This document shows positions 4-25,012 of a DNA stretch of 33,845 nt, in pieces (within the stretch, counting starts at the first letter, position 1; every line of letters begins with the position of its first letter). Both the position numbers and the translations under genes were made by a program. The notes below the pieces were generated by a model. The model had not been told where the DNA came from. It made no database searches and was given only the letters and a program-made list of their open reading frames with translations. The DNA comes from a virus, in the IMG/VR virus record IMGVR_UViG_3300020442_001503, positions 1-33,845 of that record. One strand, 5' to 3'.

Positions 4-10
4 GAGAGGA
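4..10 (+). promoter_or_regulatory. Ribosome binding site of the giant baseplate gene
   Basis: A GAGAGGA Shine-Dalgarno sequence lies 8 bases before the ATG at 19. It is one of the strongest purine-rich sites in the window and fixes the start of the 4227-residue protein. The TAG just before it (2-4) could be the stop codon of an upstream gene, but too little sequence is present to tell. Confidence 0.75.
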
Positions 11-18
11 AATAAAAT

Positions 19-3000
19 ATGTCGCAATTTGAGAAGAGAGTGCAACTCAATAAAATTATTGAGAGCCAACTTCCAGAGTTTCTAGTTGCCGATTTTCCAA
101 AGGCAGTTGACTTCTTCAGACAATATTATATCTCCCAAGAACATCAGGGAGGTAATGTTGATCTGGTCGATAACCTCGATCGTTATATAAGAGTCGATAA
201 CTTAGTTCCTGAAGTTGTTGTTGGTAAAACAACTCTTTCCTCTGATATTACTAATACTTCATCTACAATTACCGTTGGATCAACCAAAGGTTTTCCCGAT
301 GAGTATGGTCTATTAAAGATTGATGATGAAATCATTACCTATACAGGTAAAACGGACACAACTTTTACTGGTTGTATTCGTGGATTTAGTGGTGTTACTG
401 GATATAATGTAGGTATTAGTAGTTTTATTAATGATGTTAATAAGCAGAATGTAATTTTTAGTACATCTGTTGCTGCATCACATACTGCTAATAGTGATGT
501 CACCAACCTCAGCGTTATCTTTTTACAAGAGTTTTATAAAAAACTTAAGAGGACTTTCACACCTGGTCTTGAAGAAGCTGATTTTGTTTCTGATCTTGAT
601 GTTGGCAACTTTGTAAAAAGTGCAAGATCATTCTATCAATCTAAGGGTATTGCAGAATCTGTAAAAATTCTGTTCAAGGTCCTTTATGGTGTAGAAGCAC
701 AGGTACTTGATCTTGAAGACAGACTGATAAAAGCATCAAGCGCAGATTATATTAGAAGAGAGGTTGCAGTTGTTGAGTCAATTTCAGGTGATCCATTTGG
801 TTTAGAAGGTCAGACAATTTATAAATCCAATGATACTTCTACCAGTGCATCTGTATCTGATGTAGAAATTTTTACTAGAAATAATAAATCATATTATAAA
901 CTTGGATTGTTTATTGGATATAATGAAAGAGATTTAATAGAAGGCATATTCAAAGTTCCAGGTTATAGTAAAGCATTAGAACCTGCATCTGTCGGTGCGG
1001 AGGTAATTTCTGTTGACTCTACGATCGGTTTTCCAGAATCTGGCACTGTAATCTCTGGTAATAATACTATTACTTACACTTCTAAGAGTGTTAATCAATT
1101 CATTGGATGCTCTGGAGTTGTAGAGGCAATATCAGCAACAGACCCAGTTCGTGCAAATGAAACTGCTTTTGGGTATGAAGGTGGAGATATTAATAAGAGA
1201 GTTGATGTAAGACTGACAGGCGTATTGTCAGAATTTGTACCTCTGGGAGAAATTTCTTTAGTAGATGTTGGTGAGGAGATCTTTGTAAAAAATATTGGTG
1301 AAGTAATTGAAAATCCTCAGACAAAAACATACAAGCAAGTATTTGCTAATTCTTGGATTTACAATACAGCATCAAGATTTAAAGTATCATCAATCTCAGG
1401 TCCAACTTTTACATTGATGACTTACATTGATAAGTCTTCTCTTAGAGTTGGAGATGAAGTTGATGTTCTGCTTAGAAATAGTGAAACTGTAGTATCAAGT
1501 AATGCTACAGTCAATACAATAAATCAATCATTAAATCAAATCACACTCAGCAATCTTTCACCAACTTTTGTTGCAGGTCCAAATACTAAGTATGATATTC
1601 GTAGAAAAATTAGAAAAGTAACATCATCTTCAGTCAGTTTAAATCATGGAAATAATGCATTTATTTCTGATATTTTGAATGTGTACACTGATGACAATTC
1701 AACCTTTGGTTATGTTGCATCTAATTCTTTACCAAATTATACTATTAACGATGAAATTATCACATCAAGTGTGCCAAATGGAAATGGTGTAAATTTTGGT
1801 GACTATGATAGTGTAAAGCAAGCATATTCAATTATTAAATTCCCATCTAATGTATCTTTCATTGATGGTGATCAGGTTGTATATAACTCAGACACACCTC
1901 TACCTGGATTGAATGTTGGAGAAATTTATTATGTAAGAATCGTTGCACCAAATCAAATTAGATTATATGTATCTAAATCTCTTCTTTCTGGTACAGCATT
2001 TGTAACATTTAAAGCAAATGGATCTACATCTTCACACAAATTTACTCTCAAGCGTCATAGAAACCCAATCTTAGATTCAAATAAGATTCTGAGAAAAATT
2101 CCAATCACAAAAAACTTACTTGATAAGGTTGGATCCAAGAGAAATGTAGGTAATATTGGTGTTTTAGTTGATGGCGTTGAAATTACAAGTCCAGACTCTA
2201 GAAATAGCATTTATAGTGGACCAATATCTAAATTCGAAGTCTTCAATGGTGGATCTAATTATGATATAGTCAGACCACCCAGTATTAAAATATCTGCAGG
2301 CATAGGAACAACTGCACTTGTAGAACCAATTATTATTGGTTCAGTTAAAGATGTATTGGTAGATCCACAGGACTTTGATATTGATGATATTCTTAATATC
2401 ACAGTAACTGGTGGAAATGGATCTGGTTGTGTTTTAAAACCAATTCTTGGTGATAGATTCCGCGAGATGGAATTTGATAGTCGTGAAATTGGATTCAATG
2501 GTGGTATTGATATTAATGATGAAACAATCAGTTTTCTTCAACCACACAATCTTGTAAATGGTGAGCACATCATTTATAATCAAAATGGTAATAATCCACT
2601 CCCAATCGGCATTTTTGATGATGCTGCACAAGCAATTACTGATTACTTGGGAAGTGGTGATGAATATGTTGCTCAAGTCGTTAATGCATCCACAATCAAA
2701 CTTTATAAAACCGATGGTGATGCTCAAGCAGGAATTAACACAATTGGATTTACCACAACAACTTCAGCACCTGGTATTCATAAATTTAGAACTCTTTCCA
2801 AGAGAACTCTAAGATCAATTAAAGTTTTAAATGAAGGTTCTGGATATCAATATCGAAAGTTGAGAGTTCCTTCTAGTGGAATTTCTACAGAATATAACAC
2901 ACTTACATTTGAAAATCATGGGTTCTCCAATGGTGATGTTGTAAATTATTCCACAAGTGGAACAGTTGCATCTGGATTATCGACTTCAAATAGATATTCT

Positions 3001-6000
3001 ATCAATTTGATTGATAATAATAGTTTCAGATTAATTAATGTTGGGGTTGGTGGAACTGTAACGACAGATCTTACACGGGAAAAATATGTAGAATTTGGTG
3101 ACAAGGGAACTGGATATCATATTTTCCAGTATCCAGAAATTGAAATTAATGCCAATGTTTCATATGGATCCTCAATTAAGGGATCGTTTACCTTTACTCC
3201 TATTGTAACTGGACCAATTGTTGACACATATTTGTATGAAAATGGTAGTGGATATGGTTCAGATATATTAAATCTTGAAAAGACTCCAACAATAACTCTT
3301 GTTAATGGTAAATCTGCACAATTGAATGCAGTTGTATCTAATGGAAGAATTATTGATGTTCAAGTTTTAAGTAAAGGATCTGAGTATTTTTCAACACCAG
3401 ATCTTATTGTAAGTGATGGTAAAGAAGGAAGCGGAGCAATTCTTAGACCTGTAATCGTCAATAATCAAATCGATAGTGTCATTATTATCAATGGTGGTAT
3501 TGGATATGATGAAGCATCTGTAAACATTCAAATTAAACCAAGAGGTGCTGGGGCAATATTTGGTATTAACATTAGAGAATTAAAAGTAAATGATGCTCAG
3601 AGATTTGGAGAGTATGCAAAACTGAGAACTCCAAAGATATTCTCAAACTTAGAAGAGAATAATACTGAAACTGGTGTTGTTTATGGAATGTATGGTTATT
3701 CTGAGGATCTTGCAAACTTCTATGGTGATGATGGACAAGATCACTCACCTATTATTGGTTGGGCGTATGATGGAAATCCAATTTATGGTCCATATGGTTA
3801 TGATGATCCAGAAAATATTCAATCTGGAGTTGTAATTCTTAAGACTGGATATGAATTAAATGCTACTGTAGTTAACGATAGACCATCAACATCAACATTT
3901 GATGCTGGATTCTTTATTGATGATTATCGTTTTACAAACTCGGGACATCTTGATGAACATAATGGAAGATTCTGTAAGACACCAGAATTTCCAGATGGAG
4001 TTTATGCTTATTTTGCTGGAGTAACTACCAGCATTACTTCTAATAAGTTAGAACCATTTTATCCATATTTTATCGGCAATAAGTTCAGATCTCCATTTAT
4101 TAGTGAAAATAGCATATTAAATCAATCCTTTGATTTCAATAATTCTAATCTTGTCAGAAATACGTTCCCATATAATGCAAATAATCCTAATGCAGGATAT
4201 GATTTTTATACAGAATCTTATGAAGATTATGAACAAATCAGTGAAATAGAATCTACTTTTAAGGGTAATATTACTGATATAAGAATTGATGATGGTGGTA
4301 CAGGATATAGGATTGGTGAAGCAATAGATTTTGATTTCACAGGAACGGGCGGAAATGGTCTCAGAGCGGAAGTTTCTGAGTTAGTAGGTAAAGACATCAG
4401 TGCCCTCCAAACAACCTTAAACAGGTACGAAAATAGTGTTCTGGTGTGGGATACTGACAATCAAGTATCTGCATATTTTAGAAGTGGATTTGATTTAAAA
4501 AATAATGATACTGTTATTGTTACTGGTCTTTCAACATCAACAGCAGGTCTTTATGGATCTCAAAGAATTGGATTGACCACAGAGACTGTCAGTCTTGCTC
4601 AGTCAATGACATCATATAATAATCTTGTTGGTGGAAAATATGAAGATATTGTTGTAAGAAATATTCCACAAAATGTTTCTATCGGTGGAAGTATTGTTAT
4701 TGGGACTGAAACAATGAAGGTCCTGAATAATTATTATAATGGTGTTATTAGAGTAAAGAGATATGCTGAAACAACTGTTGGTCATTCAGATGGATCAACA
4801 GTATCAATTCAGAATGATAGATTGTTATTATCTGCTAAAACACCCAAATTTGAGTCTAAGAGAAATGATCTTGTATATTTTAATGCTAAAGATTCCGTTG
4901 GTCTTGGAACAACATCTGGTGGTGCAATAAGTAAAACAATTACCGTTAATCAGACATCAACAAACATTTCTATCCCATATAATGCAATCTATCTGCCAAA
5001 TCATCCATTCAAAACTGGACAGAGAGTTACATTTACTAAGTCTAATCTTGCTGGTGTAGATTCTTTGATTGTTGGAAATGATGATACTTCATTGAATACA
5101 TTCTTTATTCCAGATACAAATACTTTAACATCTGACGTTTATGTAATCAACAAGGGTAGAAACTACATTGGATTAACAACACAAATTGGGTTGACGACTA
5201 ATACATATGGTTTATTCTTCTACAGTGATGGCACTGATAATTCTGAATACCTTTTAGAATCCAATTTCTCACAACTTACTGCAGATATTGATAGAGTAAC
5301 AACGGTCGTAAGTACAGGATCATCACATGGTTTACAAGGTGGTGATGAAATTAAATTAACTGTCAGACCAAATACAATCGTAGGTCTTGGCACTACAGCA
5401 GCATTATCATTATCACTTGGGACCGAAGATAAAACTCTTCTTGTCAATAGAGTTGGTGTTGATTCATCCCAATTCAGTACAGCAAATAACACAGTTACAA
5501 TAAACAATCATGGATATAAAACTGGAGATAAACTCTATTACACCAGTACTGAAGTAGCAACAGGTCTCTCAACAGGAACATATTATGCTGTTGTAGAAAC
5601 TTCTAATACATTTAGACTTGCTGAGACTAAGTATGAGAGTAATCCAATTACAGAGAAAACAATAAGTATTGCTGGTGTCGGTAACTCTGAGCATTCATTT
5701 GCATTGGTAAATCCAAAGATTGATGTTGTAAGAAATTCCGATCTTAAATTCCTTGTACATGATCCTTCTCTCAATGGATATCAATTAAAGATTTACAAGG
5801 ATAATGATTTTACCAATGAGTACATCACGTCATTTGATGATTCTAATTTCAACGTTGTTGGTGTTGGTACCGCAGGTCTGGGTATAGCAGCACCAGCATC
5901 TGTTACTCTTAAGTATTCTGACAATGTTCCATCAAAACTGTACTATACTTTAGAAAAGTCTGGATACATTAGTACCTCCGATATAGATGTTAATCAATAT

Positions 6001-9000
6001 TCTCAGATAGAGTATGTTGATAGTGAATATAACGGAACATACAATATTTTTGATGTAACTAATACAACATTTACAATTTCACCAACTACCACTCCTACAG
6101 TATTATCATATGATGATGATCAATGTGATGTCTTAGAATATAATACAAAGTCATCTACTGCAATAAATGGTTCTATTGCAAAAGCAAAGATCATCTCTGA
6201 AGGTTATGGTTTTAACCAATTACCAAAACTTTCTAAGATAACAACAGTTGATGGTAGAGATGCAAATGTTGTTGCAATTTCAACATCAGTTGGAAATATA
6301 AAGAACGTTAGAATTAGAGATATTGGATATGATTATTCTTCTGACTTAACTTTGAGACCAGAAGTATTTGTACCTCCAGTAGTTGGTGTTGATAACTTAG
6401 ATACAATAGAATCTTTTGAGATCTTATCCTCTGGTAAATATTATGTAACTCCACCCAACTTACTGGTAGTTAATAATGTAACTAATGAAGTTGTTGATGA
6501 TAGTTCTTTAATTGCAGAAGCACCAAACGGTACTATTTCGAATATAATTCAGATAGCACCGATCTTTGGTCTTAAATCACAACCACATAGAGTTGTTGCC
6601 ATTGACAACTCAAATGGTGTTGGAATTTCAACAATGACCTCAAATACTTCAGGTATTGTTACTTGTTATTTAAATACACCTCTGGTTGGTTTTAATGTTC
6701 CACCATTTAAGACTGGAGATAAGATTTATGTTGAAGGAATTGAATTAGATAGTTCCGATGGAACAGGATTTAATTCTGCAGATTATGGACATAGACTGTT
6801 TAATATTACTTCATATGTAAATAGCAATCCAGCGATACTTGAATTTAGTATTGTTGATGATAGTGGAATTGGATTAAGTACCAATACTGGAATTGCTAAG
6901 ACGGTTCAATCTGGATATGCAAATATTGTCAATGAATCAATTTATCCATCAATTGAGATTAACAAGAAGAGGGGAGTATTTTCTGAAAATGAGCAACTCT
7001 TTATCTCCCGCAACGGTAGTGGATTTATTGAACAGAATGTCTTTGTTACTAAAGTTAGAACTGAATACATTAAAGTAAAAGGAAGATTTGCACTTAGAAT
7101 TGGAGATAAAGTAAAAGGAAAAGTAAGTGGTGTGATTGCTGATATAACAAGTGTGAGCGAAAATAGATCCAAGTATAAGATAGATTATTCTTCCAAACAA
7201 GAACTTGGATGGAGAAAAGAAACTGGTATGCTTGGTAATGATTATTATGTCGTACCAGACAATGATTATTTCCAGAATCTTTCATATTCTATTAAGAGTC
7301 CAATTACTTGGGATGAGTTCTCAAATCCCGTAAATGGTGTACTTCATCCAGCAGGATTGAAAAACTTTGCTGATGTTGGAATTACTTCATCTGCAAATGG
7401 TTCAGTTGGTCTTGCCGGAACAACATCTGCAATCGCAGTTCTTGATATTATTGAAGAAAAGAGAGTTGATACCATTAACTACTTTGATACTGTTACAGAT
7501 TCCGATACAAAGACAAATCCAGAACAGTCTAAATTCCTGAAGTTTAAAAATAGAAAACTAGCAAACTTCACTGAATGTAGAACCAATAGAGTTCTTATTC
7601 ATGACGATATTAGTGACAAGTTCTCTAATAAAGATAACCAAGATTTGTTCCTTGAAGTTGATGACATCTCTCTAATCGACACTAACGTAAGATATACTAT
7701 TCAAATTATTGATCCAGATACGTCAGAGTCTCAACTTTCTGAATTGGTAGTTCAATCTACCAATACAAATATCTTCTTATTTGAAAAATTTACTCTATCA
7801 AATCTACAGAATCCTAACAAGTTGGGAACATTTACTGCAGAAATTGATAATTTCTCAAGAAAAACCTTAGTTTTCACCCCAGAAGATCCATTTAATAAAG
7901 ATCATGATATTAAAGTTATCAAGAAAACTTATCTTACATCCACAAGTGGAATTGGTACACAATCTGTAGGACAAGTAAGTATTACAGGATCTAATGTTAA
8001 TGGTATTGGTACTGTCGGCACCGCCACAAGTATTGGAAATCTTGTCAAGTTCCCTGAAGGAGAATTCAACTCATTATTTGCTAGTGTAGAAATTACAAAT
8101 TCAGTTTTAGCAGAGACTGAATATATTGAGGCAATGTTAAATTATGATGGAACAGACTTGTATCTTAGTGAGTATTATTTTGATACTCAAACATTAGCAT
8201 ATAGTGCTTCTACTGTAGGAATTTTAACTGCGAAGTTAGAAAATGGATTAGTCAATCTGAATGTAATCAATACAGATGATGAATACACAATCACTGCTAG
8301 ATCCAATATTGTCGGATTTGGTACAACCTCTGTAGGCATCGGAACATATAGTTTCTTAGTTGCTGGACAGTCTTCTGGAGAAGAATTCTCTGCAAGAAAA
8401 GAATCAACTTATGCACATGGAACTGGTCCTATTAGAGTTGGAACTTTTAGCACTATTAGAGATACATCAGTATCTTCTCTTGTAAGAGTATCTGCAGGAA
8501 GTACAATAGTAATGCATCAGGTTGCAGCACTATTCAATATACAAGAAGAAGAAGTTACAGTTACTGATGGACCATTCTCCGCTGTTAATACAACTATTGG
8601 AATTGGAACATTTGTTGGAGAATATAGTGGAGGAAGTAATTTCTACGTTAACTTTATTCCAGATGCAGGATATGATGTTGAACTTCAATCTTTTAATGAA
8701 GTAGTAAACACCTTTAGTGATTTTGATAACGAACCAGATGAATTGCAATATGGATCTGCAAATGAAGAAATCTTCTTAACTGCGTATGATGGTATCAATG
8801 GTGATAGAGGAAATAAAGATAACTTTACATTGAAGCATGATGGAAATGTTATTTACACTAAGGTATTCAATCCAGCACAATCTACACAACTAGATCTTTC
8901 AACTGGTGTATTCACTATTCAGGATCACTTCCTTAATACTGGTGAAGAATTGATTTATAAACCAGATTCTACATTTGTTGGTGTTGCTGCTAGTGCCGTT

Positions 9001-12000
9001 GGTATTGGACAGACTCTGAATAGTGTAGGTGTCTTGACTGATAGACTTCCAGAAACTGTATTTCCAATTGCTCTCACACCAGATACATTTAAGTTATCTA
9101 CAAGAAGAGATTATGCCAATATTGGAATTGGAGTTACATTCACAGATACTGGTGCAGGAAATGCACATAAACTTGAGATGACTAATAAGTTATCCAAGAC
9201 TGTTATTTCTCTTAATGGTATTGTACAGCAACCATTAACCTTTACACCTATCAATCATTCACTTGCATACAATAGTGGATCAATTTCTGCAGGTATTGCA
9301 ACATTTAATATTACTGGTATTTCTTCAGTTCAACCCAGAGATATTCTTAAAATTGATGATGAATACATGAAGGTTGTTGAAGTTGGTGTAAGCACTAACG
9401 TTGGTGGACAACTTCTTGGACCTATTAATGGTGTTATTGTAGCAGGAAGTGCGGCAACATTCCCAACAGTTTCTGTTATTAGGGGAACATTTGGAAGCAC
9501 TGCAGCATCACACACTGACGGTGCAAATGTTCAGATTTATAGAGGATCTATCAACATTGTTGAAAATAAAGTTTACTTTGCTGAGGCACCAAGAGGCAAT
9601 ACAAGAGCAAGGAGAAATGCAACTAACATTCCTTATGCTAAGACACAATACTCAGGTAGAACTTTCTTAAGATCAAATTACGATACCAATATCGTATTTG
9701 ATGATATTTCTGACCAATTTACTGGTGTTGGAAGAACATATACAATGTCAGCATCTGGTTTGAATACTTCTGGTGTTGATATTGGTAATGGTCTTGTATT
9801 GATAAATGGTGTATTCCAAACACCAACAACTATTAATAATGAAGGTAATAATTACCAATTTGTCAATGATAATATCGCAGGAATATCCACAATTCAGTTC
9901 ACTGGTATTTCTTCATCAGATGGCACAAAGATTCAATCTGATTTCGATGTAAATCAAAATCAACTTCCAAGAGGTGGTCTAATTGTTTCCTTAGGTTCTA
10001 CTCCTGGTCTTGGATATGCACCACTTCATGGAGCAGAAGTAAAGGCAGAACTTACTGGTGGAGTTATAACCGATGTAATTGGTGTTAGTACTTATCAAAA
10101 TCCTGTTGGTATTGAAACTGCAGATTATAATAAGACAACAGGTGTTATTAAAATTGAAACAAGCACCAATCACTATCTGAAGGGTGGTGATAGAGTTCAA
10201 TTAGTTGGTCTTCACTTTACTTGTGCTCAAGCACATGCTGGAGTCACCACAACAATCTTCCCAGATCACGATCGCTCATTTGATATTGTAAATATTCTTT
10301 CCAATAGAGAATTGGAAGTTCAGGTTGGTCCTAGCACAATCGCACATAATTATGTTGGATTTGGTAGTATTTTCCAATACTTTACTTTAAATACTGGATC
10401 TGGATATAGAGGACCTGTATCTATTGGTGTTACTGATCTTGCATTTGAACATAGATTTGTTAGATCTGCAGCAGATTCAATTACCGATGATGCATCAAAT
10501 ACATACACACCAACTGCAGCATCATTTACTTCGCATACAGGTCAACTGATACTTACAATTCCAGGTCACTCACTGACTACTGCAAACACAGTTGCTATTG
10601 ATACCGAATCTTTAGTATTCACCTGCTCTGAGGATGATTTCTTAACTGAACAATCATATCCAAGAGCAACTGATCCTGTTGCAGGTATTCAAACTGCTAT
10701 TACATCAGTAACTACCAATACTATCACAGTCAATGTTGGACCAGCTGGTGGTGCAGGACAAGGTGCTGCAGTTTCAGTAACAGTTGGTGCAGGTGGAACT
10801 CTTGCATTTAGTGTTGATCAGGGAGGCACTGGATACGTAAATCCAAGAATTATTATTCCAGAACCAGTATATGAGAATCTTTCTATTGAAGGTGTTTCTA
10901 GACTTGGTATTGGTACAACCACTGATACTGGAAGTAACTTACTTATGAATGTTACGATTGGTGCAGCAAGTACCAATGTTGGTATTGGATCCACATTATT
11001 TGAAGTTGATTCGTTCAAGATTACGCGACCTGGTTATTCTTTCCAAGTTGGAGATGTATTTAAAGTAGTTGGTCTTGTAACAGCAGCACATCTTAGTGAA
11101 CCAATTGAAGAATTTAAACTTGAAGTTGTTGAAATCTTCAATGACAAGTTTTCATCTTGGTCATTTGGTGAAATGGATTATATTGATAATACTAAAAATC
11201 TACAAGATGGTAAGAAGAAAAGATTCCCACTGTTCTATCAAGGTGAACTGCTAAGTTTTGAAATTGATCCAGATGATCCACTTTCTGGTGCTATTGATTT
11301 GGATGCACTTCTGATTATATTTGTAAATGGTGTTCTACAGGAACCTAAGAAGGCATTTACATTTACTGGAGGAACGTCTTTCCTCTTCTCTGAAGCACCC
11401 AAAGAATCTGACGATGTAGACATTTTCTTCTATAAAGGTCAAGATGGAGTTGATATTAGTGTTATTGATGTCCAAGAAACTGTTAAAGTAGGAGATAAAC
11501 TCCTAGTTAGAAAAAATCCTCTGTTCCCATCAACATTATCACAGACACGAAATAGGACATTGTTTGATATCTTAGGATCCGATATAATTGAAACTGATAA
11601 TTATGTTGATATTGGTATTGATGAAACCAACTTCAAACCATTAGATTGGACTAAGCAAAAGGTTGATATGTATATTAAGGGTGATGTTGTTTATAAGACA
11701 AGACCTGTCTATGAACCAAATATCTATCCGACAGCAAAGGTTATTGGTTCTATTGATGATTCTGCTACCAATATATTTGTTGATGATGCACAATTCTTTA
11801 ACTATGAAGAAGATAATTATGGAGTTCTGATTAATAATGTTGATGCTTTAGTTGTAGACAGTAATGATCCAGTTTCTGCAGCATTTACAGCAACTGTTGG
11901 TACCTCTGGAACTATTACTGCTATTACAGTTACAAATGTTGGTTCTGGATACTCTGCAACTGGAACTATTCCAATTAAGTTTAGTGCTCCAGTGACTATC

Positions 12001-12702
12001 GGTACTGGTATCGGAACTGTTGCTGCAGGTGAAGCAACCTTAACAAATGGATCTGTCTCCAGTGTTTCAATTACTAATATTGGTCTTGGATATACAAATA
12101 CAAATCCACCACAACTAATTACAGTTATTCCAGAGGCATCAACTGAAGAAATTGATAATATTTCAAATGTAGAAGGATTTGCTGGAATTATCACTGGAAT
12201 AAGTACAACTACTGGAACTGGCGGTCATGGACTTGCATTAAAAATTAACTTTAATGCACTTGCTAGTGATGCTAATGATCTTGCAGTTGGTTATCCAATT
12301 TTAATCAGTAATACTAAAGTTGGTACTGGAGTAACATCCGTTGATAGTGGAGATGGATCAACTGTTGGAATTGGAACAACATTCCTTGATAATGTTTATA
12401 TTGTCCATTCCAAGACTAATCAAGGACCAATAGCTGAAATTACTTGTAATATTCATACAAATAGTGCAGTAGTAGGATTAGCAACTACAGGGTTCTATAA
12501 TCCACTTAATGTTGGTTTAACAACTTCTCTAGGAACCCTTTCTTGGGGAAGATTATTTAATTATGATAATCGCAGTCAACCAGTTTCATTTGGAGCAACA
12601 GGGTTAACTGTTGATGCTGAATTAAGTACATTCCCTACAATTCAGAGAAGGGGATATGGATTGAAGAATAATGGATCTATTAGTGCCCGCTCTACCATAT
12701 AA
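19..12702 (+). CDS. Giant modular baseplate/fibre protein with YHYH domain (VrlC-like, gp7 position)
   Basis: This 4227-residue protein lies directly upstream of gp8, where T4 has baseplate wedge gene 7 (about 1030 residues), so it is probably the baseplate component that carries peripheral modules. The first ~290 residues (QLPEFLVADFPKAVDFF; later YQSKGIAESVKILFKVLYG) form a baseplate-like N-terminus interrupted by a small beta module. A YHYH-type domain lies at about 1235-1345, with GWAYDGNPIYGPYGY at 1247-1260 and HNGR at 1314-1317. The rest is a chain of short beta modules of at least four kinds: GxGY modules (near 745, 1070-1190, 1420, 2055-2150, 3600, 3970), HGF-x-NGD-type modules (near 615, 843, 967, 1831, 2970, 3385), NGVxQxP modules (C-terminal third) and modules ending in RG-x-xG. 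No signal peptide or transmembrane segment is seen. Marine T4-like phages carry large proteins here, often named VrlC; that name is by resemblance. The structural role is well supported, the exact T4 equivalence is not. Confidence 0.8.
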   Translation: MSQFEKRVQLNKIIESQLPEFLVADFPKAVDFFRQYYISQEHQGGNVDLVDNLDRYIRVDNLVPEVVVGKTTLSSDITNTSSTITVGSTKGFPDEYGLLKIDDEIITYTGKTDTTFTGCIRGFSGVTGYNVGISSFINDVNKQNVIFSTSVAASHTANSDVTNLSVIFLQEFYKKLKRTFTPGLEEADFVSDLDVGNFVKSARSFYQSKGIAESVKILFKVLYGVEAQVLDLEDRLIKASSADYIRREVAVVESISGDPFGLEGQTIYKSNDTSTSASVSDVEIFTRNNKSYYKLGLFIGYNERDLIEGIFKVPGYSKALEPASVGAEVISVDSTIGFPESGTVISGNNTITYTSKSVNQFIGCSGVVEAISATDPVRANETAFGYEGGDINKRVDVRLTGVLSEFVPLGEISLVDVGEEIFVKNIGEVIENPQTKTYKQVFANSWIYNTASRFKVSSISGPTFTLMTYIDKSSLRVGDEVDVLLRNSETVVSSNATVNTINQSLNQITLSNLSPTFVAGPNTKYDIRRKIRKVTSSSVSLNHGNNAFISDILNVYTDDNSTFGYVASNSLPNYTINDEIITSSVPNGNGVNFGDYDSVKQAYSIIKFPSNVSFIDGDQVVYNSDTPLPGLNVGEIYYVRIVAPNQIRLYVSKSLLSGTAFVTFKANGSTSSHKFTLKRHRNPILDSNKILRKIPITKNLLDKVGSKRNVGNIGVLVDGVEITSPDSRNSIYSGPISKFEVFNGGSNYDIVRPPSIKISAGIGTTALVEPIIIGSVKDVLVDPQDFDIDDILNITVTGGNGSGCVLKPILGDRFREMEFDSREIGFNGGIDINDETISFLQPHNLVNGEHIIYNQNGNNPLPIGIFDDAAQAITDYLGSGDEYVAQVVNASTIKLYKTDGDAQAGINTIGFTTTTSAPGIHKFRTLSKRTLRSIKVLNEGSGYQYRKLRVPSSGISTEYNTLTFENHGFSNGDVVNYSTSGTVASGLSTSNRYSINLIDNNSFRLINVGVGGTVTTDLTREKYVEFGDKGTGYHIFQYPEIEINANVSYGSSIKGSFTFTPIVTGPIVDTYLYENGSGYGSDILNLEKTPTITLVNGKSAQLNAVVSNGRIIDVQVLSKGSEYFSTPDLIVSDGKEGSGAILRPVIVNNQIDSVIIINGGIGYDEASVNIQIKPRGAGAIFGINIRELKVNDAQRFGEYAKLRTPKIFSNLEENNTETGVVYGMYGYSEDLANFYGDDGQDHSPIIGWAYDGNPIYGPYGYDDPENIQSGVVILKTGYELNATVVNDRPSTSTFDAGFFIDDYRFTNSGHLDEHNGRFCKTPEFPDGVYAYFAGVTTSITSNKLEPFYPYFIGNKFRSPFISENSILNQSFDFNNSNLVRNTFPYNANNPNAGYDFYTESYEDYEQISEIESTFKGNITDIRIDDGGTGYRIGEAIDFDFTGTGGNGLRAEVSELVGKDISALQTTLNRYENSVLVWDTDNQVSAYFRSGFDLKNNDTVIVTGLSTSTAGLYGSQRIGLTTETVSLAQSMTSYNNLVGGKYEDIVVRNIPQNVSIGGSIVIGTETMKVLNNYYNGVIRVKRYAETTVGHSDGSTVSIQNDRLLLSAKTPKFESKRNDLVYFNAKDSVGLGTTSGGAISKTITVNQTSTNISIPYNAIYLPNHPFKTGQRVTFTKSNLAGVDSLIVGNDDTSLNTFFIPDTNTLTSDVYVINKGRNYIGLTTQIGLTTNTYGLFFYSDGTDNSEYLLESNFSQLTADIDRVTTVVSTGSSHGLQGGDEIKLTVRPNTIVGLGTTAALSLSLGTEDKTLLVNRVGVDSSQFSTANNTVTINNHGYKTGDKLYYTSTEVATGLSTGTYYAVVETSNTFRLAETKYESNPITEKTISIAGVGNSEHSFALVNPKIDVVRNSDLKFLVHDPSLNGYQLKIYKDNDFTNEYITSFDDSNFNVVGVGTAGLGIAAPASVTLKYSDNVPSKLYYTLEKSGYISTSDIDVNQYSQIEYVDSEYNGTYNIFDVTNTTFTISPTTTPTVLSYDDDQCDVLEYNTKSSTAINGSIAKAKIISEGYGFNQLPKLSKITTVDGRDANVVAISTSVGNIKNVRIRDIGYDYSSDLTLRPEVFVPPVVGVDNLDTIESFEILSSGKYYVTPPNLLVVNNVTNEVVDDSSLIAEAPNGTISNIIQIAPIFGLKSQPHRVVAIDNSNGVGISTMTSNTSGIVTCYLNTPLVGFNVPPFKTGDKIYVEGIELDSSDGTGFNSADYGHRLFNITSYVNSNPAILEFSIVDDSGIGLSTNTGIAKTVQSGYANIVNESIYPSIEINKKRGVFSENEQLFISRNGSGFIEQNVFVTKVRTEYIKVKGRFALRIGDKVKGKVSGVIADITSVSENRSKYKIDYSSKQELGWRKETGMLGNDYYVVPDNDYFQNLSYSIKSPITWDEFSNPVNGVLHPAGLKNFADVGITSSANGSVGLAGTTSAIAVLDIIEEKRVDTINYFDTVTDSDTKTNPEQSKFLKFKNRKLANFTECRTNRVLIHDDISDKFSNKDNQDLFLEVDDISLIDTNVRYTIQIIDPDTSESQLSELVVQSTNTNIFLFEKFTLSNLQNPNKLGTFTAEIDNFSRKTLVFTPEDPFNKDHDIKVIKKTYLTSTSGIGTQSVGQVSITGSNVNGIGTVGTATSIGNLVKFPEGEFNSLFASVEITNSVLAETEYIEAMLNYDGTDLYLSEYYFDTQTLAYSASTVGILTAKLENGLVNLNVINTDDEYTITARSNIVGFGTTSVGIGTYSFLVAGQSSGEEFSARKESTYAHGTGPIRVGTFSTIRDTSVSSLVRVSAGSTIVMHQVAALFNIQEEEVTVTDGPFSAVNTTIGIGTFVGEYSGGSNFYVNFIPDAGYDVELQSFNEVVNTFSDFDNEPDELQYGSANEEIFLTAYDGINGDRGNKDNFTLKHDGNVIYTKVFNPAQSTQLDLSTGVFTIQDHFLNTGEELIYKPDSTFVGVAASAVGIGQTLNSVGVLTDRLPETVFPIALTPDTFKLSTRRDYANIGIGVTFTDTGAGNAHKLEMTNKLSKTVISLNGIVQQPLTFTPINHSLAYNSGSISAGIATFNITGISSVQPRDILKIDDEYMKVVEVGVSTNVGGQLLGPINGVIVAGSAATFPTVSVIRGTFGSTAASHTDGANVQIYRGSINIVENKVYFAEAPRGNTRARRNATNIPYAKTQYSGRTFLRSNYDTNIVFDDISDQFTGVGRTYTMSASGLNTSGVDIGNGLVLINGVFQTPTTINNEGNNYQFVNDNIAGISTIQFTGISSSDGTKIQSDFDVNQNQLPRGGLIVSLGSTPGLGYAPLHGAEVKAELTGGVITDVIGVSTYQNPVGIETADYNKTTGVIKIETSTNHYLKGGDRVQLVGLHFTCAQAHAGVTTTIFPDHDRSFDIVNILSNRELEVQVGPSTIAHNYVGFGSIFQYFTLNTGSGYRGPVSIGVTDLAFEHRFVRSAADSITDDASNTYTPTAASFTSHTGQLILTIPGHSLTTANTVAIDTESLVFTCSEDDFLTEQSYPRATDPVAGIQTAITSVTTNTITVNVGPAGGAGQGAAVSVTVGAGGTLAFSVDQGGTGYVNPRIIIPEPVYENLSIEGVSRLGIGTTTDTGSNLLMNVTIGAASTNVGIGSTLFEVDSFKITRPGYSFQVGDVFKVVGLVTAAHLSEPIEEFKLEVVEIFNDKFSSWSFGEMDYIDNTKNLQDGKKKRFPLFYQGELLSFEIDPDDPLSGAIDLDALLIIFVNGVLQEPKKAFTFTGGTSFLFSEAPKESDDVDIFFYKGQDGVDISVIDVQETVKVGDKLLVRKNPLFPSTLSQTRNRTLFDILGSDIIETDNYVDIGIDETNFKPLDWTKQKVDMYIKGDVVYKTRPVYEPNIYPTAKVIGSIDDSATNIFVDDAQFFNYEEDNYGVLINNVDALVVDSNDPVSAAFTATVGTSGTITAITVTNVGSGYSATGTIPIKFSAPVTIGTGIGTVAAGEATLTNGSVSSVSITNIGLGYTNTNPPQLITVIPEASTEEIDNISNVEGFAGIITGISTTTGTGGHGLALKINFNALASDANDLAVGYPILISNTKVGTGVTSVDSGDGSTVGIGTTFLDNVYIVHSKTNQGPIAEITCNIHTNSAVVGLATTGFYNPLNVGLTTSLGTLSWGRLFNYDNRSQPVSFGATGLTVDAELSTFPTIQRRGYGLKNNGSISARSTI
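3721..4053 (+). other. YHYH-type domain inside the giant protein
   Basis: Residues about 1235-1345 contain DHSPIIGWAYDGNPIYGPYGY, then DEHNGRFCKTPEFPDGVYAYF after some 50 residues. This pair of blocks is characteristic of YHYH proteins, which occur as free bacterial proteins and as insertions in cyanophage virion proteins. The literal YHYH tetrapeptide is not present; the flanking blocks carry the match. Function is unknown; a surface-exposed binding role is an inference. Confidence 0.7.
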
Positions 12703-12705
12703 ATA
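12698..12705 (+). promoter_or_regulatory. T4-type late promoter (TATAAATA) before gene 8
   Basis: A perfect TATAAATA octamer, the sigma-gp55 recognition element of T4 late promoters, overlaps the TAA stop (12700-12702) of the giant gene and lies 17 bases before the ATG of gp8. T4 late promoters need no -35 element. Assignment is by sequence and position only. Confidence 0.75.
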
Positions 12706-12722
12706 CATAAAAAAAGATAACA

Positions 12723-14282
12723 ATGCCAGCACTTGTTACTGATAAATTTAGAATTCTGAATGCCAGTAATTTTGTAGATTCAGTTGATAATACATCCAAT
12801 TCATATTATATAACTGTAAATCTTGCAAATCCTACTGCCGTTGGATTTGGTAGAACTACAACTTGGAATACATCACCCCCATCTCCATTGGATAGCATTT
12901 CTTCTAATGCTCATTCGGGCGATGTCTCTCTTTATGGTAAGAAAGTTTCTTCTGCTAATATTCGAAGAATTATTAGAAGAATTGATTGGGTTGCAGGGAC
13001 AAGATATGAAATGTATCGGGATGACTACAGCATTCAAAATCCATCTCCACTGACAAATGCATCTAGATTATATGATGCAAATTACTATGTAATGAACTCT
13101 GATTTTAGAGTTTACATCTGTATTGAGAATGGGTCTGATGGAGATACACCTAAGGGCAATGTTTCTCAAGATGAACCAACATTTACTGATCTAGAACCTT
13201 CAAGAGCTGGTGATAGTGGTGATGGATATATTTGGAAGTATCTGTTTACAATTTCACCAAGTGACATTATCAAATTTGACTCCACAGAATATATAACTGT
13301 TCCCAATGATTGGGCAACAAGTACAGATCCACAAATTAGAGCTGTTAGAGAATCTGCAGACTCTTCTGTAAATTCAAATCAAATTAAGACCGTATTTATT
13401 GAAAAAGGTGGATCTAATTACTCAAATGGATTAGGACAAGAGTTAGATATTATTGGCGATGGAACTGGTGGAAGAGTAAGGGTTGATGTTGTTGGTGGAA
13501 AAATTACAAAAACTACTGTTACCTCTGGTGGTAGTGGATATAGTTATGCTTTAGTTGATTTGGGTCCATTAAATTCATTTACAACTGGAACAAGCGCAAA
13601 GTTAGTTCCAATAATTCCACCATCTAGAGGTCATGGATATGATATCTACAGTGAATTAGGAACTGATAAAGTTCTCGTTTATGCAAGATTTGATGATTCC
13701 ACTAAAGATTTTCCAGTAGATACAACATTTGCTCAGGTTTCTATTGTAAAAAATCCAACTAGTGTTGGAACCGCACAAGTATACACAGAAAATACTTTTA
13801 GTGGATTGAATTCACTGAAATTCTCTTCAGTAACTGGAAATCCAGTTGTGGGAGAAAAGATTCAACAAGGTGTAGCAAATGGAGTTGGTATTGCGTTTGG
13901 ATATGTTGCATCATACGATACTGAGACCAAGGTTCTAAAATATTTCCAAGATCGATCTCTGTATTTTAACGCAACTACTTTTGATCAGCAAGATTATGTT
14001 GGAATTTCTACTAATGGTAGAGCATATCCATTTGAATCATCAGCAAATCAAATTTCAGGACAAACTTCTGGATTCAGTGGATCTATTGATACAGGATTTT
14101 CTGGAATCACAACAAATCCATCTGGTCAAAAGTTAATTAACCTTGGTGTTAATTTCACAGCAGGGTTGGCGTCTCCTGAAATAAATAAAGGGTCAGGGGA
14201 TTTAATTTATCTGGACAATAGACCTTCTATTTCTAGAAACTCGCGCCAAAAAGAAGACATCAAAATTATACTGGAATTCTAA
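12723..14282 (+). CDS. 8: Baseplate wedge protein gp8
   Basis: This 519-residue protein matches T4 gp8, the wedge protein that joins the gp7-gp10-gp8-gp6-gp53 baseplate arms. Matching blocks are the N-terminus MPALVTDKFRILNASNF; DVSLYGKKVSSANIRRIIRRIDW with the tryptophan of the T4 RRDW block; GDSGDGYIWKYLF at about 163-175; EYITVPNDW; and the C-terminal LIYLDNRPSISRN followed by an acidic end. T4 gp8 has 334 residues. The extra length is a GxGY module at about 221-285 and a second insert near 370-460 (VVGEKIQQGVANGVGIAFGYV and FSGSIDTGFSG-type sequence). The ATG is chosen because it lies just downstream of a late promoter and aligns with the T4 N-terminus. The next gene starts 3 bases after the stop. 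Confidence 0.93.
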   Translation: MPALVTDKFRILNASNFVDSVDNTSNSYYITVNLANPTAVGFGRTTTWNTSPPSPLDSISSNAHSGDVSLYGKKVSSANIRRIIRRIDWVAGTRYEMYRDDYSIQNPSPLTNASRLYDANYYVMNSDFRVYICIENGSDGDTPKGNVSQDEPTFTDLEPSRAGDSGDGYIWKYLFTISPSDIIKFDSTEYITVPNDWATSTDPQIRAVRESADSSVNSNQIKTVFIEKGGSNYSNGLGQELDIIGDGTGGRVRVDVVGGKITKTTVTSGGSGYSYALVDLGPLNSFTTGTSAKLVPIIPPSRGHGYDIYSELGTDKVLVYARFDDSTKDFPVDTTFAQVSIVKNPTSVGTAQVYTENTFSGLNSLKFSSVTGNPVVGEKIQQGVANGVGIAFGYVASYDTETKVLKYFQDRSLYFNATTFDQQDYVGISTNGRAYPFESSANQISGQTSGFSGSIDTGFSGITTNPSGQKLINLGVNFTAGLASPEINKGSGDLIYLDNRPSISRNSRQKEDIKIILEF

Positions 14283-14285
14283 ACC

Positions 14286-17200
14286 ATGCCACAGAAGACT
14301 AATTTAAACGTAAGTCCTTATTACGACGACTTTAATAAGGATGATAATTTTTACAGAGTTCTTTTTAAACCTGGATATCCAGTTCAAGCGCGAGAACTGA
14401 CGGGTCTTCAATCGATTTTACAAAACCAGATAGAATCCTTTGGTAGTCACATCTTTAAAGAAGGTTCTATGGTGATTCCTGGCGGAATCACTTGTGATAA
14501 TAATTTTACAACAGTTAAAGTTTTAAATAATCATCTAGGTATAGATATAACCGTTTATCTAGATTCACTCGTTTCTGCTAATAATGGCAGGGGTGCTCTT
14601 GTTTCTGGTCAATCTTCCGATGTTGTTGGAAGAATTAAGGGATATCTATTACCTCCAGCAGAGGGTGTAAGTGATATTACATTATTTGTAAAATATCGTG
14701 ACGGTGGTAGTGACAACGAAACTGTAGAATTTCAAGATGGTGAAATATTACTTCTTCAAGAAAATGTAACCTATGGAAATACAACTTTAAATAGTGGCGA
14801 TAGTGTAATTACTCTTACATCAACAGGTGCGACTAGCATTGGATATTCTGTTGGTGTAGCAAAAGGCGTATATTTCATTAGAGGAACTTTTATAGATGTT
14901 CCCACATCATCTATTGTTCTTGATCCATATACTACAGATGTATCATATCGTGTCGGATTTGATATTCTTGAGCAAGTAGTTACTGCTGATGAAGATGGAT
15001 CTCTTAATGATAATGCTAAGGGATTTACTAACTATGCAGCACCTGGTGCTGATAGATTAAAAATTACAGTCAAGTTAACTAAAAAGCAACTTCAAGACTA
15101 CGAAGATGTTAACTTTGTAGAGTTGGTAAGAATTGATAAGGGTGAAATTAAAAGCATTCAAGATAGTTCAACTTATAGTGTAATTAAGGATTACTTTGCT
15201 AAGAGAACGTTTGATGAGTCTGGTAGTTATGCGGTAGATGCATTTAAAGTCGATATTGCCGAAACTTTAAATGATGAAACTGGAAATGGTGGACTTTACA
15301 GATCCGATGAACTGACTGAGCAAGGAAATGTCCCTACAGAGGATTTAATGTCGATTAGACTGTCTGCAGGGACAGCATACGTTAGAGGATATGATATTGA
15401 TCTAGATTCTTCTGTAGTTGTTGATGTAGAAAAACCAAGAACAACAAAGAAAGTTAACAGTGCATTAATCCCATTTGCAATGGGAGGACTTCTAAAAGTT
15501 CACAATGTACGAGGAACTCCTTACATTAATATTGGAGCACCAATTTCTGGTAATAATGATAATACAATTGAACTTTATAATAGAGTAAGAAATTCTAGCA
15601 ATACTGCATCAATTGGTAATAGTGCCAAGAAAATTGGTGAAGCAAGAGTTTATTGGTATGGAGTTTCTGATGCACCATATACAGGTGCTACAACTCAATG
15701 GGATCTATATCTGTATGATATACAGACTTTCACCACAATCTATCTTGCAAATGCATTCCCTGCAGCAGACGTTCCACTTACATCTTATGTAAGAGGTGTT
15801 TCTAGTGGTGCTACAGGATATATCCATGAAACTGTAAATAACGTTGGTGGATATAATCTTGTTCAAACTTCTGGAACTTTCTTAGTTGGTGAAAAAATAA
15901 TCATCAATGAGAATGAAAGATTCCAGACAAGTTTAATAGCAGTAAATCAGTATACTGTTGAGGATATTAAATCAGTTTATCAAAATTCTGATGCACTGAA
16001 TACTGATTTAGGAAGTGATTTTATTGCAGACACTGTACTTCATGAAAAAATTCTCCCTAATTTCTCTGCACTAGATAAACTGACAATATCTGGAGGAAAT
16101 ACTGGCGCAGTTTCTGGCAAGTTCTTCAATGCTGTTACTGGTATTAAGACTGAAGCAATTATCAAATATCAAACTGGAACTGCTGATCCAAACTTCAATA
16201 TCATTACAGGTATTGCTGCAAATGGAACTTCTATCACTTTATCTTCTGGATCACCATCATCTGTTAACGGAATTTATAGCAACAATGTTACCAATGGAGA
16301 CTCACAATTCTCCTTGATGGTTCCCAAGATTAAAAATTCTCTTAATTCTGGATTATATGCAGATTTGCCTAGAGCAAATATTGCTTCAGTAGATCTTGCA
16401 AGTTCAAATCTTACTATTAGTAAGCAAATTACTGGTCAAAGCACAGATGCTGTAGGCACACTAACTATTACTTCTACTGATGCTTTAGATACTTCAGCAG
16501 GAATCACTAGTGCTTTCTTTGAAACATTTGATGCGGAAAGATATGGTGTATTTTATGCTGATGGTACTATTGAGCAACTTACTTCAGATCAATTTGTTCT
16601 GGGTAACAACGGTAATTCAATTACATTGAATAACTTAACTCCAAATCAGAGTAATAATGTTACTGTCAGTGTAACTCTGAAGAAACAGCAAGTTACAAAT
16701 AAGATCAAAGACTTTGTAAGGAGTAAGCAGTTACTTATTAGAAGAACTGCAGGAATTTCTACAGCGACTGGTCTTTCTACAAGTCCATATTATGGTCTAA
16801 GGGTTGAAGATAAAGAAATTTCATTGAATACTGCTGATGTTGTAAAAGTTCGTGCCGTATACGAATCTACAAATAATACTGCACCAGTATTAGATAGATT
16901 GACTTTTTCCACTGGATTGTCACTTGATGTCAATGCCATTGTTGGTGAAAAAATTGTAGGAAAGAATAGTAGAGCAATTGGACAGGTTGTTAATAGAACA
17001 GCAACAACTATTGATTATGTACCATTAAATGAAAATACTTTTGAAGTCGATGAATTTGTAGATTTTAAAGATTCTTCGATTAATGCTGCAGTTCAAGAAA
17101 TAAGACTTGGTAGTTATGTTGACAGAACGTCTAATTACTATCTGGATAAAGGTCAAAGAAATCAATATCTTGATTATTCAAGAATTGTTAGAGTTGCAGG

Positions 17201-20200
17201 TAATGCTGCTCCAGCAAGACGATTATTAGTAATCTTTGATGGATATGAAACTGCAGCTGGAGGTTCTGGAGATATCTACACAGTAAATTCATATACTCAA
17301 GAAAGATATAAGAGTGATATTCCCAAGTTCCCAACTGGAGAACGTGCTAGTGATAGTTTAGACTTTAGACCAAGAGTTCAGGATTTTGATCCAGATACAA
17401 CTAACGGATCACCATTTGCATTTAGTAGCAGAGATTATGATTCAACATACAGATATGTTGTAAAACCAGATGAAACTTCTCTCGTTGGATATAGTCACTA
17501 CTTACCTAGAGTTGACTTAGTAACTTTAAACAGATTAGGTGAGGTAGAAGTCATTAAGGGTGAACCTGGAGATGGTGCTCAAGCACCAGTTCTTGCTGAT
17601 GATGCAATGGAAATTGCACAGATTAATTATCCTCCTTATGTTTATAATACGAAAACAGGTCCTAAAATTGCATTAAGAGATAATAGAAGATTTACAATGC
17701 GTGACATTGCAAATCTTGAAGATAGAATTGAAAATCTGGAAGAAGCAACAAGTCTGTCATTGTTAGAATTGAGTGCTCAGAGTTTTGATGCAACAGATGC
17801 TAATGGTCTTAATAGATTCAAGTCTGGATTTATTGTATCCAACTTTACAGATAAATCTTTATTTGAACCGAAGTATACTACTGTTGACATTGATAAAACA
17901 AATAATTTTGCAGTTTCACCAGTTGATTTCTGGTCTCTACCAGCAGAACTTGCTCTAGACCCCTCGATTGATAGAACAACTGCAGATGTTACTCAGAATT
18001 TAAGACTTTTAGATCCAAACATTCAAAAAACTGGTGATATTCTCACTCTAAAATATGATGAAGTTGATTGGTTAGAGCAACCACATGCAACAACTGTTGA
18101 AAATGTAAATCCATTCAACGTTATTGTATATGTTGGTGGTGTGACGTTGGATCCAGCAGCTGATAATTGGACTAGAACCATTTATATTGATGATCAAAGA
18201 ACTGAAACTACTGGTGCTAATTGGGTTCAAAAAGCTACAGTTAATGTAGATGTTAATGTAGTTAAAGGAACTAAGTATGTAAGAAGAGCTGGTAGAGGTG
18301 AAAGAAGAAAAGTTACTACCCGTACAACTACTACAACTACCACAACAACATACCAACCAAAACTTGTAGGTCCTTCTAGAGAATTTGATTATGTTGAAAG
18401 TTTAAAAATCTCAAGTAGTGTAGATCCATTTATGCGTTCTAGAAACGTATACTTTAAAGCAGATGGATTGAGACCTTTCACTAAGCACTATCACTTCTTA
18501 GATAGTCAGCAAATTGACACTGCTCCAAAGGTTGTCAAGATTGCAATGTCTTCCGGAACATTCACTGTATTTGAAGATGTTGATGTTTTCAGTGGAAACA
18601 AAAAGATTGGTCACATGAGAATTCAGAGACCAAATCATAAGTTTGGCGACTCTACACGACCAGATATTACAGCAGGACTTGGATCTCCATCAGAATATGT
18701 TGAAGCATATACTGTAGATCCTTATGATAAAGATGCGCCAGCCCCATCAACCTCATATTCAGCAACATCTAAATTGTTGAATATTGATGTTAGAGCACTT
18801 GCTAATCAAGAAAAATATTATGGATATCTCACAAGAGGTGCAAGAATTGTAGGAAGAACAAGTGGTGCTGTTGCAACTGTCGAAAGATCTGAATTAATTT
18901 CAGATAACTGGGGTGATATTATTGCAGCATTCTTCTTTAGAGATCCCAACACCACACCACAACCACCAACTAAGGTAACTAGCGGTACCAAGACCGTTAA
19001 ATTAACTGCTCTCCCACCTGGTGTCACTCCAACTCCTGGATCGAACGCGTTCCAATCAGAAGCATTTGGAACTTATAGTGGTTCTGGTACTATCAGAACA
19101 CAGATAACCAAGCGTGTTGCTGTTAGAAATCCACCCAGACCAAAACCAAAACCAACAACTGTTACAAAAGCAGTTCATAGAGATCCTTTAGCACAGACAT
19201 TCACTGTTGATTCTAAGGGTGCAATGTTGACATCATTCGACCTTTTCTTTGCATCTAAAGATCCTAATGCCAAGATCTTTGTAGAACTTAGAACAGTTGA
19301 ATTAGGAACCCCAACACAGTTCTTGGTTCAGGACTACTGCCAAGTAGCACTCAATCCAGATCAGATTAACGTATCTGATGATGCTAGTGTAGCAACTAAT
19401 GTTAAATTCTCATCTCCAGTGTATCTGGAACCAGGAATTGAATATGCAATCGTAATTCTGTGTCCATCATCTGATGGATATGAAATGTGGACTGCACTGA
19501 TGGGTGAAAAGACAGTCAAAACTGCAAATCTTCCCAATGTACAGAATGTTATTGTCACTAAGCAGTATATTGGTGGAGCACTGTTCAAGTCTCAAAATGG
19601 TACAATCTGGACTCCAAACCAATATCAGGATTTAACATTCAAACTCTATAAGGCGAAGTTTGTTAACTCAGGAACATTGACTTTCTACAATACTCCTGTT
19701 ACTTCAGGTGGAACTAATGTTGCTAGACTTCAGAACAATCCTATTGAAGTATTACCAAGAAGACTCAAAGTTCCCATCGCTGGAGCACTTGATGCTGCAG
19801 TTGTACCTGGTGTTAAAGTTGGTGAAGGAACAAGTCCAAGCATCACTGGTTTCGTAGAAAATCTTGGTGGACCAATTGTCACCAAATCAATAAGTCAAGT
19901 GGGCGCAGGTTATTCAAATGGTGTATTTGCCAATGTTCCATTATATAACATTAGTGGAAACGGAAGTGGAGCACAGGCAACAGTTACATTTGCTGGATCT
20001 GTAATTAGTACATTAAGTGTTACTACTGCTGGTGAGGGTTATGTTCCAGGAGACATTCTTGGAATTACTACCGCTAATGTAGCATCTGGTGTTGGTGGTC
20101 AAGTTTCTGTTCAGACTATTGGTGCAACAAATGCACTTTATCTGACAAATGTTCAAGGTGAAAACTTCACGAATACTGAAACAATTCAGTATTATACTGA

Positions 20201-24181: not shown

Positions 24182-25012
24182 ATGGCAAAACCATCAACTA
24201 GGCAAGGATTAATCGATTATTGCTTGCGTCAACTTGGTGCTCCCGTATTGGAAATCAATGTGGATGATGACCAAATTGATGACCTAGTTGATGATGCCAT
24301 CCAATATTTCAATGAGCGTCATTTTGACGGTGTTGAAAAGATGTATCTTAAGTATAAGATTACTGAAGATGATGTAAATAGAGGTAAAGGTAAAGGTACA
24401 GGGGGTGTAGGAATTGTTACCACCACTGCTACCGATACTTCAGGTAGAACGTATAATTTTTACGAAACAGAAAACTATATTCAGGTTCCCGATTCAGTAA
24501 TCGGTATTGAAAAGATTTTTAAATTTGATTCCAGTTCCATCTCTGGTGGAATGTTTAGTATCAAATATCAACTGTTTTTGAATGATCTTTATTATTTCAA
24601 TTCAGTTGAACTTCTTCAATATGCAATGACTAAGAGTTATCTTGAGGATATTGATTTCTTACTTACAACTGATAAGCAGATCAGATTTAATAAGAGACAA
24701 GATAGATTATATCTCGATATTGATTGGGGATCCCAACCTAAAGATGAATTTATTATTATTGAATGCTATAGAGCATTAGATCCTGCATCATTTACTCAGA
24801 TTTACAATGATAGTTGGATGAAACAATATCTGACTGCATTAATCAAGAGACAGTGGGGTAGAAACTTAAGTAAGTTCAAGGGTGTCAAACTTCCTGGTGG
24901 AATTGAATTGAATGGTGGAGAAATTCTCCAACAAGCAGAATCTGAGTTAGCAGACATTAAAGGAAGAATGATGTCTGAGTATGAATTACCACCTCTCGAC
25001 TTTATTGGATAA
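24182..25012 (+). CDS. 13: Neck (head completion) protein gp13
   Basis: A 276-residue protein (T4 gp13 has 309) of the T4 gp13 family, which forms a ring with gp14 below the portal after packaging and makes the head ready to join the tail. Diagnostic blocks are LRQLGAPVLEINVDDDQI at 15-32, with T4 having LRRLGAPIINVELTPDQI; YFNERHFDG at 42-50, with T4 YGEYHFDG; a C-terminal LPGGIELNGGEILQQA; and PPLDFIG at the very end, with T4 PPFGILVG. A Gly/Lys-rich loop (GKGKGTGGVG) near 68 is not typical. The stop overlaps the ATG of gp14 by one base (TAATG). Confidence 0.95.
   Translation: MAKPSTRQGLIDYCLRQLGAPVLEINVDDDQIDDLVDDAIQYFNERHFDGVEKMYLKYKITEDDVNRGKGKGTGGVGIVTTTATDTSGRTYNFYETENYIQVPDSVIGIEKIFKFDSSSISGGMFSIKYQLFLNDLYYFNSVELLQYAMTKSYLEDIDFLLTTDKQIRFNKRQDRLYLDIDWGSQPKDEFIIIECYRALDPASFTQIYNDSWMKQYLTALIKRQWGRNLSKFKGVKLPGGIELNGGEILQQAESELADIKGRMMSEYELPPLDFIG

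Follow-up and report, generated by a model that had tools for sequence, protein, structure and literature searches.

The reading frame that opens the window, i.e., the complete 33,845-base IMG/VR virus record analyzed here, was found to encode the cyanophage orthologue of the baseplate wedge protein gp7, most likely consisting of a wedge core and a long peripheral arm of beta modules. The probability of this reading is estimated at roughly 0.8. The frame is uninterrupted between the ATG and the stop codon (Table 1) and the deduced protein of 4227 amino acids has a computed mass of 456.9 kDa and a pI of 4.7. All 34 aligned relatives have the start methionine in common. The frame is regarded as real, since it is open from ATG to stop and relatives are encoded at 80 viral-contig loci, which is far beyond chance. 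The first 8 kb of the window matched 417 phage records on the DNA level and residues 1-400 matched 462 records using tblastn, all of them named Synechococcus, cyanophage, Prochlorococcus or marine virus. The DNA similarity of the window points to the Prochlorococcus and Synechococcus myoviruses.

The cyanophage baseplate is poorly known and the literature consulted here disagrees on whether gp7 is present in it. In a preliminary description, made from the letters of the sequence, the N-terminus had been called baseplate-like. This is borne out by PHROG 2885, annotated as "baseplate wedge subunit" (E=0, 3818 bits), as well as by the match to the T4 gp7 core described below. The best stretch of the PHROG match covers residues 4-3355, corresponding to profile positions 6-3327 of 4179. 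In the window, gp7 is directly followed by gp8. The order gp25-gp6-gp7-gp8 could be identified in P-SSM2, P-HM2, S-CAM7, S-T4, S-SRM01, ACG-2014f and others; the upstream gp25-gp6 pair is known from these relatives only, since the window begins at gp7. The gp7 proteins of P-SSM2, S-CAM7, S-SRM01, P-HM2 and S-SZBM1 share the gene position and the giant size class and are alignable over the full length (48-54% identity for P-SSM2 in the parts measured), whereas insertions and deletions relative to the window are concentrated at residues ~3400-3590 and ~3990. A sequence search of the PDB gave no match for the whole protein up to an E-value of 1 and none for the N-terminal profile up to 10. The weak Pfam rows PvlArgDC and Rho_RNA_bind were under the cut-off and were dismissed.

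Table 1. Features of gp7 and its neighboring genes in the window. Residue numbers refer to the gp7 protein.
Feature	Position	Strand	Basis or remark
gp7 baseplate wedge protein	19..12702	+	4227 aa, 457 kDa; reading frame, PHROG 2885 and relatives
N-terminal helices, residues 3-42 and 48-58	19..192	+	candidate helix-turn-helix of the core bundle; low-pLDDT model
Beta insertion between core helices, residues 66-150	214..468	+	contains module D1 (66-119); model and self-comparison
gp7 core, residues 195-322	601..984	+	homologous to T4 gp7 724-830 (helix and start of domain V), by profile and structure match
Module D2, residues 312-364	952..1110	+	repeat of D1 (66-119), prob 97 (aligned 71-119 / 317-364)
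Module B copy, residues 604-659	1828..1995	+	more copies at 835-905, 948-1006, 1812-1868, 2958-3037
Module A (GxGY type), residues 736-805	2224..2433	+	more copies at 1059-1178, 2129-2200, 3941-4056
Tandem A modules, residues 1059-1178	3193..3552	+	also in neck protein and gp53-like protein
YHYH domain, residues 1222-1341	3682..4041	+	PF14240
Variable zone, residues 3407-3590	10237..10788	+	relatives gain or lose 60-530 aa
gp8 baseplate wedge protein	12723..14282	+	next gene; PF09215, PHROG 438
2448-aa DUF4815/VrlC-type baseplate protein	14286..21632	+	DUF4815 match
Neck-like protein	25012..26124	+	carries GxGY module
Short protein with T4 gp9/10 N-terminal domain	26151..26888		directly before subtilase
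Subtilase	26888..28627	+	PF00082, E 1.4e-27; structural block
gp53-like protein	31639..32328	+	PHROG 708 "baseplate wedge subunit" and position; name assigned here

T4 gp7 is stated to be absent from cyano- and pelagimyophages, where it appears to be substituted by VrlC, according to a passage of PMC7029224, and the homology to T4 gp7 was therefore tested directly. A profile of 18 T4-type gp7 sequences, with T4 gp7 taken from NC_000866, was compared with one of 29 cyanophage gp7 sequences (the window protein and 28 others) using HHalign. The probability was 93.7 for the full length, with the alignment reaching residue 313, 95.8 for residues 1-450, 96.3 for residues 150-420 (E 1.9e-9) and 95.5 for residues 1-260, where the helix only was aligned. 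Residues 195-322 of the window protein match residues 724-830 of T4 gp7 with probabilities ranging between 94 and 97%, and 29% of the 99 aligned columns are identical. On the T4 side the matched stretch starts between the Pfam domains Gp7_helical (643-689) and Gp7_5th (766-861). The negative controls T4 gp6, gp8 and gp10 and cyanophage gp6 each gave a probability of at most 1.7, whereas cyanophage gp6 against T4 gp6, the positive control, reached 100. None of 40 column-shuffled profiles came near the real match (best score 22 vs. 79). An HMM of T4 gp7 701-870 was searched against 251 ORFs with a best E-value of 1.3e-8, and all 25 among the matches listed were located on gp7 frames. When 12 proteins of the window were compared with T4 gp7 as single sequences, the 4227-aa protein was the only one above 1 (48.6). 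These profile comparisons show homology between residues 195-322 and the core of T4 gp7 (724-830).

A structure model of residues 1-700 (pLDDT 63.5, pTM 0.30) is strand-rich and most of its helical stretches are below a pLDDT of 50. In a Foldseek search against 350,542 PDB chains the top match was T4 5iv5_BJ (E 4.7e-3, prob 0.54) and no row was below 0.001. The entry 5iv5 contains T4 gp7 (1032 aa), and chain BJ, with 1004 residues, was taken to be gp7 from its chain length. VIA-align superposed residues 243-413 on 5iv5_BJ 760-853 (90 residues, rmsd 3.4 A), with a Z of 7.7 that lies within the quoted noise of the tool. The register is compatible with the sequence match, and the structure match is weak by itself. 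The remaining Foldseek and VIA matches of this model (tail proteins, an ATPase, EF-Tu, E1 barrels) were attributed to small beta barrels of a common type.

The helices of the N-terminal model were predicted at residues 3-42, 48-58, 165-180 and 195-223. By its position, the first pair is a candidate counterpart of the T4 gp7 helical domain 643-689; it is colinear with T4, with a score that is not significant by itself and helices of low pLDDT. Profile comparison gave no match in the window protein for T4 gp7 residues 1-640 (best E 0.44), and domain VI of T4 gp7 was not matched in the HHalign comparison of cyanophage and T4-type gp7.

T4 gp7 (PDB 5iv5, 5hx2) thus has the core and the gene position between gp6 and gp8 in common with the window protein. 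In T4, however, the core is located near the C-terminus after about 640 residues that have no detected counterpart in the window, whereas in the window protein it is N-terminal and followed by about 3800 residues whose module array is absent from T4. The protein had been described as four times the length of T4 gp7, which is arithmetically true and misleading at the same time, as only about 110-220 residues are common to both according to the profile comparison. The window gp7 is therefore not simply T4 gp7 made longer: the two have the core alone in common, and the additional chain continues from the other side of it. No statement on this difference in core position was found in the passages returned by a literature search.

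A core bundle at the start of the chain is described elsewhere. The gp7 orthologue of Vibrio phage XM1, gp17, has 242 amino acids and starts with the core-bundle helices; it anchors the spikes via residues 80-106 (inter-helix loop) and 201-242 (C-terminus), as described in a passage of PMC10457771. T4 gp7 1-640 cannot have an equivalent in XM1 gp17, since that protein is only 242 aa long. In the wedge partner gp32 of Anabaena phage A-1(L), the helical core bundle is likewise found at the start, as far as described in a passage of PMC10966104. Both are likened to the window protein on the basis of these published descriptions and, in contrast to it, XM1 gp17 is very short and the spikes or fibres of XM1 and A-1(L) are separate proteins.

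The roughly 3800 residues beyond the core are cyanophage-specific and contain recurrent small beta modules. A self-comparison of the gp7 profile, which replaced rough regular-expression counts of the modules, revealed 48 off-diagonal pairs at a probability of at least 70. The preliminary description of the region as a string of small beta modules is supported by these recurrences and by two models rich in strands, one of residues 1-700 and one, of poor confidence, of residues 1030-1490. The support covers part of the 3800 residues. Large parts of residues 1400-4227 lie outside the assigned modules. The A module was also detected in the neck-like protein (prob 89.6) and the gp53-like protein (93.5) and weakly in gp8 (57.8). 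The GxGY module of gp7 residues 1059-1178 thus recurs in the neck-like and gp53-like proteins, so that several proteins of the virion are decorated with a single type of module. In the same tail gene block, a 983-aa frame (28667-31618, plus strand) has no match in Pfam up to an E-value of 0.1 or in PHROG up to 0.01.

The YHYH-type domain noticed earlier could be confirmed. PF14240 matches residues 1222-1341 with 92.1 bits (curated cut-off 25) over profile positions 74-188 of 193. For a comparison of conserved positions, 82 cellular proteins (80 and two plasmid proteins) and 79 phage domains were aligned. The domain belongs to the same family as the cellular YHYH proteins and its aligned stretch has 28% identity with a protein from a Deinococcus plasmid. 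In contrast to these, it is embedded in a baseplate protein and has lost the histidines of the YHYH and AH-x-QP sites. The three conserved histidine columns contain H in 79, 78 and 79 of the 82 cellular proteins. In the phage rows, H was found at the first histidine of the YHYH motif in none and at the second in 5 of 79, and at the upstream AH-x-QP site the eight commonest entries, which account for 76 of the 79 rows (7 gaps), contain no H. Asp1302 and Asp1312 are kept in all 79 phage rows, and His1242, present in 78 of them, is specific to the phages. Asp1251 is constant as well, in rows that were selected by that very motif. A PDB sequence search with the YHYH piece gave no match up to an E-value of 10. 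The model of the region has a mean pLDDT of 49.2 and was therefore not used to judge the geometry of a metal site; its VIA rows have a Z of at most 4.0 and fall mostly on model residues 66-150.

The large size of the protein, which had been presented as unusual, is ordinary for cyanophages, and public records already list the protein under the name gp7. In eleven named phages (whole genes or published lengths) gp7 ranges between 3048 and 6619 aa: S-PM2 3048, S-SRM01 3895, Bellamy 4067, DSL-LC03 4107, S-CAM7 4314, P-HM2 4454, S-T4 4749, Sf-CH5 4878, P-SSM2 5195, Syn33 6376 (19,131 bases) and S-SZBM1 6619 aa. A size of 3000-6600 aa is therefore normal for this protein. Most complete gp7 frames of viral contigs, for which the identity in the first 900 residues is 55-68%, have a length of 4110-4240 aa. 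Among the 99 related frames in the collected loci, including the window's own piece, 58 have at least 3000 aa; 27 of these end at a stop codon and 31 run without one to the edge of the excised locus. Three of the 99 frames are short and stop-closed, with 493 (L088), 710 (L005) and 1220 aa (L018). The length varies mainly at ~3400-3590 and ~3990 and, in Syn33 and S-SZBM1, also at residue 113 between the core helices. A rule of two growth sites is not followed exactly: S-PM2 and P-HM2 are without stretches between 450 and 1050, S-T4 and Sf-CH5 are longer by 135 aa at 3001, and smaller inserts are present at 1561-2076 in Syn33 and S-SZBM1.

That separate genes were fused by an assembly error, a case raised in the preliminary description, is refuted by the long frames, which occur without a stop in independent contigs, dozens in number, and in isolates; the probability of such an artefact is negligible. 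The lack of a product in proteomics, raised likewise, is refuted for the homologue S-SZBM1_208 (6619 aa), which was detected in virions by mass spectrometry with 71 peptides, a coverage of 13.5% and an emPAI of 0.41 according to a passage of PMC9146016. The presence of this homologue in virions makes both an assembly error and a silent gene unlikely. At the same gene position, ORF122 of S-CREM2 (5814 bases) is listed with 91 unique peptides in a passage of PMC10665884; it was matched to the window by position alone. The replacement of T4 gp7 by VrlC, with the 4227-aa protein as an unrelated receptor-binding or fibre protein, has the statement in the passage of PMC7029224 on its side and agrees with the fact that a simple sequence search does not find T4 gp7. 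The profile comparison, however, finds the T4 gp7 core in the 4227-aa protein, whereas the 2448-aa VrlC-type protein reaches a probability of 0.3 against T4 gp7, and the DUF4815 profile matches this neighbor and not the 4227-aa protein. VrlC as the substitute was rejected, as there is no T4 gp7 signal in the VrlC-type protein. The replacement is thus very improbable and, as judged from the profiles, the published absence of gp7 from these phages is not supported as regards the core.

Two further alternatives concern the arm and are both unlikely. The arm could be cut off during assembly, e.g., by the subtilase, so that core and arm would be separate chains in the virion. The gene of this protease had been noticed downstream of gp7 and is indeed present in the same structural block (Table 1), and the tryptic data in the passages published cannot separate a whole chain from pieces. 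On the other hand, the 71 peptides of S-SZBM1_208 are assigned there to one protein, no cleavage site is known and the link of the subtilase to gp7 is putative. The YHYH domain, in turn, could be catalytically active and take part in breaching the envelope. A passage of PMC7824862 proposes this role for phage YHYH domains and predicts a metal-dependent hydrolase with three histidines and an aspartate. This would fit the domain score above the Pfam cut-off and the retained Asp1302 and Asp1312, and His1242 could be a new ligand. However, the histidines kept in 78-79 of the 82 cellular proteins are replaced in the phage rows. Because the conserved histidines are lost in the gp7 subgroup, its YHYH-family domain is a hydrolase only putatively, and it is probably not the proposed enzyme unless other ligands are used.

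The window gp7 is most likely composed of a wedge core and a long peripheral arm, for which we infer position, shape and ligand. The wedge is described with a (gp6)2-gp7 stoichiometry in a passage of PMC6300606. By analogy with T4, XM1 and T6SS, one copy of gp7 would be present per wedge and six per baseplate, amounting to about 2.7 MDa in total, and the N-terminal helices would pair with two gp6 subunits in the core bundle and the trifurcation. The roughly 3800 residues past the core may form an arm of beta modules, flexible or built in segments, that leaves the wedge and makes up the baseplate periphery. Through this arm, contacts could be made with adjacent proteins of the baseplate, with fibres or with the cell surface, and YHYH would serve there in binding, either without catalysis or with a different metal. 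Long extensions that would dominate the virion surface, as suggested in the preliminary description, are hypothetical. More tentatively, and less likely than not, the cyanophages may have kept the gp7 core alone and rebuilt the rest. The arm would then grow at two sites resembling the XM1 spike anchors, i.e., the core-helix loop and the part after the core, gp7 itself would therefore be the modular, lineage-specific periphery of the baseplate and the YHYH fold would have become a binding module.

For the T4-like marine cyanophages the core match provides an answer on the presence of gp7 at the sequence level. It separates conserved machinery from a lineage-specific arm in a protein that is among the largest of the cyanophage virion, and the domain limits of gp7 are now usable for cryo-EM model building.

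In Syn33 and S-SZBM1, about 506-511 additional amino acids are found after residue 113, within the beta insertion. In S-SKS1 (NC_020851), the gp7 frame (11938 onward) is broken, with 710 aa, and the region 11946-18943 is without an annotated gene; an error in sequencing or a splitting of the gene may be the cause.
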